A stretch of DNA of 35,379 bases. Origin: Chromatiales bacterium. GTDB lineage: Bacteria > Pseudomonadota > Gammaproteobacteria > UBA6429 > Thiohalophilaceae. Shown piece by piece: positions 20,771 through 23,692 of the stretch (position 1 is the first letter of the stretch; every line of letters starts with the position of its first letter). Under the pieces are notes generated by a model, which was given only the letters and a program-made list of their open reading frames with translations, did not search any database and was not told the DNA's origin. The DNA is taken from contig JALSSV010000088.1 in assembly GCA_026984045.1 (NCBI GenBank), positions 1 to 35,379 on the forward strand. The letters are read 5' to 3'. A program made the translations under genes and the position numbers.

Positions 20771-20786
20771 CCGGGTCAGGATCATT

Positions 20787-21050
20787 ACTAAGACCAACGA
20801 CACTAAAGCAAGATTCAGAGCGTCCCAAACGTTTCGGATCAAGGCGCAGCCCGCCGGGAATGGCGAGCCCTTGCCAAGGGCTGCAACGCCGAGCCGGAAC
20901 GTTTGGGACGCTCCCTTCGGGCGGGCATCTGGGCGGCCATTCGCGGCGTTGCCGCGGCTTGCCATGGGTGTGCCATGGCGGCGCCACGGCGCCTTGCGCC
21001 TGACCGCCCAGATGCCCGCTGAATCTTGCTTTAGTGTCGTTGGTCTTAGT
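20787..21050. mobile_element. 264-bp MITE-like element with three-armed palindrome
   Basis: Perfect 32-bp terminal inverted repeats (20787-20818 and 21019-21050) flank two inner palindromic arms. The first has 16-bp arms, GAGCGTCCCAAACGTT (20818-20833) with 20898-20913. The second has 16-bp arms, 20921-20936 with 21004-21019. If ends are set at CTAAGACC...GGTCTTAG, the flanking dinucleotides are TA on both sides, as in IS630/Tc1-type insertions. No gene lies inside. The whole element can fold into a Y-shaped three-way junction. It fills most of the gmk-rpoZ gap. Confidence 0.8.
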
Positions 21051-21119
21051 ACAATTTCCGGTCACCTTGCGAATTGACCCCCGCTCGCCGTGCCGGCGGG
21101 CGCCATCCGGAGAGAACCC

Positions 21120-21539
21120 ATGGCTCGCGTTACCGTCGAAGACTGCCTCGAAAACGTCAAGAACCGCTTTGAACTGGTGCTGGTGGCCGCCAAGCGCGCC
21201 CGCCAGCTTTCCAAGGGGGCCGAGCCCCTGGTGCCCGAGGAGAACGACAAGCCGACCGTCATCGCCCTGCGCGAGATCGCCGAGAACCTGGTCAATGCCG
21301 ACATCCTGGAAGAGCAGGAGCCGGTGATCCAGGAAGAGCTGCTGGAGGAGCCCACCGCCGAGGATCAGGCCATCGCCGAGGAGACCGGCAACCAGCCCCT
21401 GTCCGAGATGGACGTGGCGGCGGCCATCAAGGCGGCCCTGGAGAGCGACCTGGCCGGTGGGGGCGGGGCCGCCGCGGAGGCGGACGCGGGCGAGAAGACG
21501 GTCGAATCCGGCGAGGAAGGCGAGACAGGAGGCGAGTAA
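21120..21539 (+). CDS. rpoZ: RNA polymerase omega subunit with long acidic tail
   Basis: The 139-residue protein starts [30 protein letters not shown] and contains [15 protein letters not shown], the omega fold that binds the beta' subunit and, in E. coli, contributes to a ppGpp site. Typical omega proteins have 70-95 residues; here about 65 additional residues form an acidic, Ala/Glu/Gly-rich tail ([19 protein letters not shown] and onward), probably disordered. GGAGAG upstream supports the ATG at 21120. The TAA overlaps the presumed AUC start of spoT. The inverted-repeat element lies directly upstream, so the native promoter arrangement may have changed. Confidence 0.93.
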
Positions 21540-23692
21540 TCGCCACCCCCGGCACACAGCTTCAGGAGACCGGTGCCGAATTTCGCATCAGCGATCTGTG
21601 TGAGATTCTGGAAACCTATCTCGAGCCGGAGCAGGTCAGCGAGGTCTATGCGGCCTACCTGTTCGGCGCCGAGGCCCACGAGGGCCAGCAGCGCCTCTCC
21701 GGCGAACCCTACATCACCCATCCCATCGCCGTGGCCCGCATCCTTGCCGAGATGCACATGGACCACAAGAGCATCGCCGCGGCCATCCTGCATGACGTGA
21801 TCGAGGACACCGGCATCGCCAAGGAACAGGTGGCCGAGCGCTTCGGGGAGGAGATCGCCGAGCTGGTCGACGGCGTCAGCAAGCTCACCCACATCCAGTT
21901 CGAATCGAAGGCCGAGGCCCAGGCCGAGAACTTCCGCAAGATGATGCTGGCGATGGTGCGGGACATCCGCGTCATCCTCATCAAGCTGGCCGACCGCCTG
22001 CACAACATGCGTACCCTGGGCGTGATGCGCCCCGACAAGCGCCGGCGCATCGCTCGCGAGACGCTCGAGATCTACGCCCCCATCGCCAACCGCCTGGGCA
22101 TGAACCGCATGCGCCTGGAGCTGGAGGATCTGGGTTTCGCCGCCCTCCATCCCATGCGCTACCGGGTGCTGCGCGAGAGCCTGAAACGGGCCCGGGGCAA
22201 CCGCAAGGAGATCGTCGGCAAGCTGCAGGAGGCCATTCAGGCGCGCCTCGAACAGGAGGGGCTGGCCGGCGAGGTGATCGGCCGCGAGAAGCACCTGTAT
22301 TCCATCTACAAGAAGATGAAGGACAAGCACCTGGCCTTCAGCGAGGTGATGGACGTCTACGCCTTCCGCATCATCGTCGACTCGGTGGACACCTGCTACC
22401 GGGTGCTGGGCGCGGTGCACAATCTCTACACGCCCATGCCGGGCAAGTTCAAGGACTATATCGCCATCCCCAAGGCCAACGGTTACCAGTCCCTGCACAC
22501 GGTGCTGTTCAGCCCCTACGGCGTGGCGCTGGAAGTCCAGATCCGCACCGCGGAGATGCACAAGGTGGCCGAGTCGGGGATCGCCGCCCACTGGCTGTAC
22601 AAGAGTTCCGACGAGGCGGCCGGCAACAGCGCCCAGATCCGCGCCCGCCAGTGGCTGCACGATCTGCTGGAGATCCAGCAGAAGGCCGGCAATTCCATCG
22701 AGTTTCTCGAAAGCGTCAAGATCGATCTCTTTCCCGACGAGGTGTACGTGTTCACTCCCCAAGGCGACATCATGGTGTTGCCGCGCGGCTCCACGGCGGT
22801 GGACTTCGCCTATGCGGTGCACACCGACGTGGGCAACCAGTGCGTGGCGGCCAAGATCGACCGGCGCCTCGTGCCCTTGCGCACCGAACTCTACAACGGC
22901 GCCACGGTGGAGATCATCACCTCCAAGGGCGCCCAGCCCAACCCCGCCTGGCTCGATTTCGTGCACACCGCCAAGGCCCGCACCCACATCCGCAACGTGC
23001 TCAAGAACCTCGAACGCGAGGAAGCGGTGATGCTCGGCGCCCGCCTGCTCAACAAGAGTCTGGCCGCCCACGGCGCCAGCCTCGAAAGCCTGTCGGAAGA
23101 GCAGACCCGCCGGGTGCTGGCCGAATTCAATTACGCCGAGCTCGACGATCTCTACAGCGACATCGGCCTGGGCAACCAGATGCCCATGGTCATCGCCCGC
23201 GCCCTGCTCCAGGGCGAGGAGCATCTTGGCGACGAAGCCGCCCGGCCGAAGCCCCTGGCCATCAAGGGCACCGAAGGCGCGGTGGTCACCTTCGCCAAGT
23301 GCTGCCGGCCGATCCCCGGCGATCCCATTCTCGGCTTCGTCACCTCCGGCCGGGGCATCGTGATCCACACCGAAGACTGCAAGAACGTGGCCGAATACCG
23401 CAACCGGCCCGAGAAGTGGATCGACGTGGCCTGGGAGGCCGATCTGGAAGGCGAGTTCCCCATCGACATCAAGCTGCTGGTGCTCAACCAGCGCGGCGTG
23501 CTGGCCAAGGTGGCGGCCACCCTCTCCGACATGGAGGCCAACATCGAGAACGTGAGCATCGAGGAGCGCGACGGCATGCACTCCACTCTCAGTTTCACGG
23601 TGATGGTCCGCAACCGCCGCCACCTGGCGCGGATCATGCGCAGCCTGCGCAGCCTGGAGATGGTGCAGCGGATCTACCGCCTGAAGAAGTAG
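21539..23692 (+). CDS. spoT: Bifunctional (p)ppGpp synthetase/hydrolase SpoT
   Basis: The reading frame gives 717 residues, close to the 702 of E. coli SpoT. The HD hydrolase domain has the metal-binding His in GEPYITHP, HD in ILHDVIEDT and Asp in KLADRLHNMRTL. Then come the synthetase domain (REKHLYSIYKKMKD, YAFRIIVDSVDTCYRVLG, KDYIAIPKANGYQSLHT), TGS (DEVYVFTPQGDIMVLP), a Cys-containing CCRPIPGDPI block and a C-terminal ACT domain. No ATG, GTG or TTG occurs in frame before the HD domain: the first ATG (21731) would remove the essential first His. AGGAGG lies six bases before an AUC at 21539 that overlaps the rpoZ TAA (TAATC). That AUC is the assigned start, by inference. Confidence 0.93.
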   Translation: MATPGTQLQETGAEFRISDLCEILETYLEPEQVSEVYAAYLFGAEAHEGQQRLSGEPYITHPIAVARILAEMHMDHKSIAAAILHDVIEDTGIAKEQVAERFGEEIAELVDGVSKLTHIQFESKAEAQAENFRKMMLAMVRDIRVILIKLADRLHNMRTLGVMRPDKRRRIARETLEIYAPIANRLGMNRMRLELEDLGFAALHPMRYRVLRESLKRARGNRKEIVGKLQEAIQARLEQEGLAGEVIGREKHLYSIYKKMKDKHLAFSEVMDVYAFRIIVDSVDTCYRVLGAVHNLYTPMPGKFKDYIAIPKANGYQSLHTVLFSPYGVALEVQIRTAEMHKVAESGIAAHWLYKSSDEAAGNSAQIRARQWLHDLLEIQQKAGNSIEFLESVKIDLFPDEVYVFTPQGDIMVLPRGSTAVDFAYAVHTDVGNQCVAAKIDRRLVPLRTELYNGATVEIITSKGAQPNPAWLDFVHTAKARTHIRNVLKNLEREEAVMLGARLLNKSLAAHGASLESLSEEQTRRVLAEFNYAELDDLYSDIGLGNQMPMVIARALLQGEEHLGDEAARPKPLAIKGTEGAVVTFAKCCRPIPGDPILGFVTSGRGIVIHTEDCKNVAEYRNRPEKWIDVAWEADLEGEFPIDIKLLVLNQRGVLAKVAATLSDMEANIENVSIEERDGMHSTLSFTVMVRNRRHLARIMRSLRSLEMVQRIYRLKK

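Follow-up and report, generated by a model that had tools for sequence, protein, structure and literature searches.

The spoT gene of a Chromatiales bacterium (family Thiohalophilaceae) appears to begin at an AUC codon, and codons of the same kind occupy the homologous place in most genomes of its family. The gene lies on contig JALSSV010000088.1 of assembly GCA_026984045.1, whose positions 1 to 35,379 on the forward strand (35,379 nucleotides) were analysed and are called the window here. We write AUH for AUC, AUU or AUA. That the AUH codon is the start of spoT is strongly supported by the comparisons below. We consider it rather likely that spoT is translated from the AUC at 21539, and that the AUH codon is kept across most of the order because it is weak and sensitive to initiation factor 3 (IF3).

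The start codon of spoT in the window and in its family

In the window, spoT extends from 21539 to 23692 on the plus strand and encodes 717 amino acids followed by a stop codon; its translation matches relatives over the full length, with residues 1-717 matched at 85% by the relative L004. The ATC start codon (21539-21541, plus strand) overlaps by a single base, a common A, the TAA stop (21537-21539) of rpoZ, which encodes the omega subunit (21120-21539, plus strand). It is preceded by the Shine-Dalgarno sequence AGGAGG (21527-21532, plus strand), seen in the sequence itself and in line with the energies and spacings found across the family. The spacer CGAGTA leaves 6 nucleotides between the two, exactly as a first, sequence-only reading of this DNA had described. 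With its HD motif and its position after rpoZ, the gene has the sequence features expected of SpoT, a bifunctional Rel/Spo protein. Its product presumably combines an HD hydrolase domain with a synthetase domain for guanosine tetra- and pentaphosphate, (p)ppGpp.

The spoT frame of the window is open for 122 codons upstream of the ATC, within rpoZ, and holds no ATG, GTG or TTG from the upstream stop to a GTG at 21731. The sequence-only reading had likewise described a frame open far upstream and free of canonical codons before the HD domain, and the sequence bears this out. It had also placed the first ATG at 21731. That codon is a GTG and the first in-frame ATG is at 21752; what stands is that both follow GEPYITHP (21701-21724, plus strand), the motif with which the HD domain opens and which holds its catalytic histidine. 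Given the base composition, the 186 open codons would lack any canonical codon with a probability of about 0.005, and the 64 codons between the ATC and the GTG with one of about 0.16. The missing canonical codons of the window are not decisive by chance alone; they exceed chance because their absence is conserved in relatives.

In the collection used, the family of the window and its order comprise one and the same set of 40 genomes. spoT is present in 39 of them and its start is readable in 38, the two others being G024, where the end of the contig cuts off the beginning of the gene, and G002, which gave no match. The start codon is ATC in 15 genomes, ATT in 14, ATA in one and GTG in eight, and ATG in none; the GTG starts make up a single genus. 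The non-canonical start first proposed for the window is supported by these 30 AUH codons among 38 homologous positions, together with the Shine-Dalgarno sequences, preceding stops and coding periodicity given below. One ATC, that of G033, was read by eye and entered by hand; this genome is not among the 37 with an uninterrupted frame. In 22 of those 37, no canonical codon is found 40 or more codons before the motif. Of the remaining 15, eight belong to the GTG genus; the other seven have a canonical codon downstream of the AUH, 42-46 codons before the motif.

The nearest readable relatives, 83-85% identical, carry ATT (L004) or ATC (L005 and L006) at the same place. A search of named genomes returned 80 loci, where the nearest named relative by identity (L007, 95%) begins inside the gene. 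An AUH start of spoT is also present in Thiohalophilus thiocyanatoxydans DSM 16326 (L008), an isolate that NCBI places in the order Thiohalomonadales. Two peculiar loci deserve mention. In the GTG genus, L091 (genome G010) has an ATA directly before its GTG start (GTA ATA GTG ACT), perhaps the relic of an earlier AUH start. In L117, the spoT of G033, an in-frame TAA lies nine codons before the HD motif while the ATC region is kept, and L025 is alike: either the gene is broken or the sequence is in error.

An in-frame stop lies no more than six codons before the AUH in 23 of 29 AUH genomes. In G025 and G026 a TAA directly precedes the ATT, and in five genomes (G029-G032 and G039) a TAG stands one codon before the AUH. 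The end of rpoZ, read with an omega motif as anchor, falls anywhere from 4 nucleotides inside to 134 nucleotides upstream of the AUH (28 of 29 AUH loci being readable), in all three frame relations. The one-base overlap of the TAATC type occurs only in the branch of the window, in 11 AUH genomes. The view of TAATC as a TAATG with its last base altered fits this branch but not the other AUH genomes. Since the distance and the frame between rpoZ and spoT vary, the AUH codon is not a by-product of TAATC. Comparing this junction in relatives had been proposed as a check at the outset, and the AUH is retained while the rpoZ stop shifts.

A Shine-Dalgarno-like match of at least four bases precedes the codon at 28 of the 29 AUH loci read. 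From the AUH to FRIS, a stretch that we call the leader, near relatives differ 106, 82 and 174 times at codon positions 1, 2 and 3, as against 66, 52 and 66 times in the eight codons upstream of the AUH; the compared pairs are not independent. Among the 27 of 30 AUH rows with the full gene, the start codon requires at least 4 third-base changes on the tree; for 17 internal columns of invariant isoleucine the figure is 5-12. With fewer such changes than these isoleucine codons, the start codon does not show the drift of an elongation codon. Altogether, and as far as sequence can tell, spoT combines the absence of a usable canonical codon, an AUH at Shine-Dalgarno spacing and conservation, as AUH-start genes do.

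spoT outside the clade and other genes within it

We looked for spoT loci in which no canonical start precedes the motif by 40 codons or more. Outside the clade there were none, neither among 77 anchored loci of the class nor among 56 anchored named loci, the clade membership of the latter being assigned by us. All 11 named loci flagged by this rule lie in the clade, L025 only through its internal stop. The class sample comprises 84 loci from 244 matching genomes: 27 given as loci outside the family, and 57 plus-strand matches that were listed with no locus. Matches of this second kind number at least 60, and the sample omits three of them, G061, G229 and G294. Loci without a motif match were dropped, namely L233, L248, L253, L263, L268, L273 and L278 of the 84 class loci and L007, L065 and L069 of the 80 named ones.

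By a rough rule, 36 of the 77 class loci outside the clade use GTG or TTG at spoT, and spoT of E. coli K-12 is annotated from TTG. Weak spoT starts are thus a wider tendency, with the AUH clade at its far end. One locus outside it, L063, has in the region 58-63 codons before the motif an ATG with scarcely any Shine-Dalgarno sequence and, five codons further on, an ATC with a better one; this ATC is a candidate for a further AUC start.

A gene screen covered the surroundings of spoT, infC, pcnB and relA, in stretches of at most 20 kb, in five relatives and the window. It took in 235 genes with counterparts in at least two other genomes and 52 clusters with at least three genomes. In 13 of the 235 rows, homology reached further upstream than the first canonical start: six of spoT, four of infC and three of other genes, whose start we place, on inspection by eye, at the first ATG. 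A clade-wide looseness in start choice is unsupported, as only spoT and infC stood out in the 52 sampled clusters; the base rate is rough, the screen being blind where a canonical codon happens to lie upstream (the infC of G023 was missed). An ATG precedes the homologous part of relA in each of the six genomes read.

The infC gene of the clade starts with AUC at 21 of the 23 loci read; the other two (L130 and L147) have AUU and AUC side by side (ATT ATC). No canonical codon lies upstream in frame at 22 of the 23, L135 having upstream TTG codons. These loci derive from 25 match rows in 24 genomes, less the unread L142 and less L148, a second piece of G012. The pattern used for infC structure itself requires ATC; the codon identity and the lack of canonical codons upstream come from a separate reading of the loci. 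In contrast to infC, pcnB, read by eye at 24 of 30 loci, is mixed in the order: ATG in the genome of the window, ATG or other options in other genera. Within genus g3, three of the four loci read (L152, L157 and L167) show ATT (ATT TCA ACN CCA) with no canonical codon upstream. Binns and Masters are said to have found in 2002 that the AUU start of E. coli pcnB limits its translation.

A special initiator tRNA for AUC was considered and rejected: in eight of eight genomes, including the window's assembly (G000), the pattern gave a single initiator-tRNA match, with the CAT anticodon, and no variant. IF3 was matched in 24 of the 40 family genomes. It was not matched in G000, which is 99% complete, by either PF05198 or PF00707, and 16 of the 40 genomes lack a PF05198 match. 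The missing match in G000 is probably an assembly gap or a search miss.

The genes gmk, rpoZ and spoT follow one another in the window as in E. coli K-12, and a relA paralogue lies elsewhere in the same genome. We take the ATG at 21120 as the start of rpoZ, as it suits the N-terminus of omega; the list of open reading frames contains the identical frame, opened from a GTG at 21090. Between gmk and rpoZ (20786-21051) lies an element resembling a miniature inverted-repeat transposable element, with perfect terminal inverted repeats of 33 bp and two inner inverted repeats. Elsewhere in this genome there are two more copies of nearly full length (79-80% identity), along with four partial matches.

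The start hairpin and alternative readings

The start of spoT in the window is predicted, by folds, stem search and statistics, to lie in a hairpin, GGCGA(GUAA)UCGCC (21531-21544, plus strand). Its 5' arm contains the last two G of the Shine-Dalgarno sequence, its loop the UAA of rpoZ and its 3' arm two bases of the AUC. Different stems occur at the same place in relatives: GGCGUUA(AAU)UAACGCC in G026, UAGCGCC as the 3' arm in G025 and GGAGCU(AUA)AGCUCU in G016. Between GGCGU/ACGCC in G018 and GGUGU/GCACU in G017 a C-G pair is changed to U-A, and the best fold of G017 differs.

The hairpin and energy analyses used 29 of the 30 AUH genomes, with G033 excluded. The 33-nucleotide start region has a mean minimum free energy of -8.5 kcal/mol, compared with -5.7 for dinucleotide shuffles, and genus means lie below those of the shuffles (Wilcoxon p 0.0008). 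The 115 control starts, which come from the sampled genomes and were chosen by a rule that demands a Shine-Dalgarno-like match, average -4.1. The mean is -6.4 for spoT outside the clade (133 starts, picked by a rough rule) and -2.7 for infC (23 starts). Start structure is weaker in the GTG genus, at -4.7. The hairpin is likely to be real in about half of the clade.

Several observations weigh against an AUH start kept order-wide for its weakness. The hairpin is uneven, with a mean z below -1 in nine of 17 genera and above -0.2 in six. A stem of at least five pairs is found at the start in 19 of the 29 AUH genomes, a count without a control, and pairs spanning the start barely exceed the shuffles (mean z 0.67). 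The 111-nucleotide junction fold of the window is not unusually stable (z -0.38). The 33-nucleotide regions are richer in G and C than the controls (0.56 against 0.49), for which the shuffles account. As for the codon, seven AUH genomes have a later GTG or ATG 42-46 codons before the motif, in six of them with a poor Shine-Dalgarno sequence. In G016, the ATA genome, an ATG 17 codons later has a good one, and the start is ambiguous. L112 has no Shine-Dalgarno match by pattern, and several other loci have one of four bases only or oddly spaced. One entire genus has GTG instead, so that it can evidently dispense with the weak start. A quick SpoT tree calls for no fewer than five changes of codon state, and for one between AUH and GTG. 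The ATG-starting L019 and L022 fall inside the clade on that tree (Shimodaira-Hasegawa-like approximate likelihood ratio test, 94); with this placement, AUH was either gained twice or reversed once.

Of the alternatives, the one that survives best accepts the AUH start and denies it any regulatory meaning: few copies of SpoT would be needed, and a weak start would have drifted in and been tolerated behind a strong Shine-Dalgarno sequence. It draws on the GTG genus, on the frequent GTG and TTG starts at spoT outside the clade, E. coli K-12 included, and on the fact that regulation is argued from analogy. Against it, ATG never appears although ATC, ATT and ATA interchange, the third base changes less than in any of the invariant isoleucine codons, and the extra local structure points to selection for weakness. 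We regard this alternative as improbable, though less so than the others.

A start further downstream, at a CTG at 21596, at an isoleucine codon in the FRIS region or at the GTG at 21731, is very unlikely. Some relatives do have an ATG 32 codons, or a GTG or ATG 42-46 codons, before the motif. However, the column of the CTG, which had been named initially as a possible start, is not conserved, being TTA, TTG, CTC or CTT in relatives, and initiation at the GTG would lose the HD motif. The excess of third-position differences in the leader also speaks for its translation, and the F-IS-LC pattern is common to outgroups that start upstream of it.

A sequencing or assembly error at a true ATG had seemed the simplest alternative from the window alone, ATC being one base from ATG and the window a contig of a 104-contig assembly. 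It is refuted, since a like error would be needed in 29 other family genomes with ATC, ATT or ATA at the same place, the isolate L008 among them. Hardly any more credible is an RpoZ-SpoT fusion made by frameshifting or stop readthrough: the frame is indeed open far into rpoZ in the window, and readthrough alone would suffice where the two genes are in frame with one stop between them (G029, G030, G032 and G039, for example), but the window needs a frameshift, G025 has two in-frame stops, G026 requires a frame change and has a TAA directly before its ATT, and with frame relations and stop layouts differing among genomes, each needing its own recoding, no single recoding event explains the clade.

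Proposed mechanism and known systems

In the mechanism that we propose for an AUH start kept for its weakness, the ordinary initiator tRNA would read the AUC at 21539 behind the strong Shine-Dalgarno sequence. Formylmethionyl-tRNA would pair poorly with AUH, and IF3 would destabilise such 30S complexes. By analogy with known genes, the yield of SpoT would be a small, IF3-dependent fraction of the AUG level and vary inversely with IF3; low expression and IF3 sensitivity had both been raised as possibilities in the sequence-only reading, and the analogy makes them plausible. The weak start probably keeps SpoT scarce, and it may tie SpoT to the translation machinery. In about half of the genera, the hairpin would pair part of the Shine-Dalgarno sequence or of the spacer with the first codons. 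Where the stop of rpoZ falls within this hairpin or close by, ribosomes that finish rpoZ may free the start site and so couple SpoT to the translation of rpoZ.

SpoT both synthesises and removes (p)ppGpp, and it is therefore conceivable that the supply of IF3 and ribosomes is linked to this alarmone through SpoT; this is a conjecture. Altogether, we infer the low yield, the IF3 sensitivity, the coupling to rpoZ and the feedback between IF3 or ribosome supply and (p)ppGpp. One may go further and imagine an order-wide control of (p)ppGpp with two locks, an AUH start rejected by IF3 and, in many genera, a hairpin opened by rpoZ translation. SpoT would then report the supply of IF3-free 30S subunits and feed back on the alarmone that sets ribosome levels. 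This extended scheme is doubtful, its probability being reduced because the hairpin signal is clear in nine of the 17 genera only.

An AUH start on spoT across an order would join start-codon fidelity, through IF3, to the stringent response. In practice, gene callers restricted to ATG, GTG and TTG would truncate SpoT in this order, and in the window they would do so beyond the first HD motif. Among the open-access matches listed, no title or abstract opening reports a non-canonical spoT start, "spot" matching many unrelated words. The spoT of E. coli K-12 resembles that of the clade in following rpoZ and in having a non-AUG start; its UUG, however, is canonical and not AUH.

Few bacterial genes with an AUH start are known. 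Those described in the papers cited below are regulators or genes of translation and RNA processing, held low by AUH. The closest precedent is infC, which regulates itself through an ATT start in E. coli or an ATC start in Streptomyces (PMC5472188). It shares with spoT a near-cognate AUH behind a good Shine-Dalgarno sequence, and the infC of the clade itself uses AUC. It differs in that spoT encodes a (p)ppGpp enzyme and not IF3, in that the spoT codon varies between AUC, AUU and AUA, and in the more structured start of spoT. A further AUU-start gene of E. coli is pcnB (PMC9410913). Its start is similarly weak, on another gene, and in the order of the window its codon is mixed.

PMC5472188 also describes the Streptomyces sigR, which starts with GTC behind AGGAGGTG and is repressed by IF3; replacing the codon deregulates the stress response. 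Like spoT here, sigR is a stress regulator with a non-canonical start conserved in its genus, an extensive Shine-Dalgarno sequence and a record of misannotation by gene callers. Its codon is GUC and not AUH, and its repression by IF3 is experimental, whereas that of spoT is drawn by analogy. For Staphylococcus aureus, PMC13009471 reports AUU and AUA starts that are conserved, stand behind extended Shine-Dalgarno sequences and yield, in poor medium, about 10% of what AUG gives; the ccpN start reaches up to 30% of AUG in rich medium. ccpN (AUA) and cvfC1 (AUU) thus resemble spoT in having conserved AUH starts behind extended Shine-Dalgarno sequences. They are other genes in other bacteria, with starts mapped there by retapamulin profiling and here from sequence alone. 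By analogy, the mechanism proposed for spoT is like that of infC, pcnB, sigR and ccpN, on a new gene.

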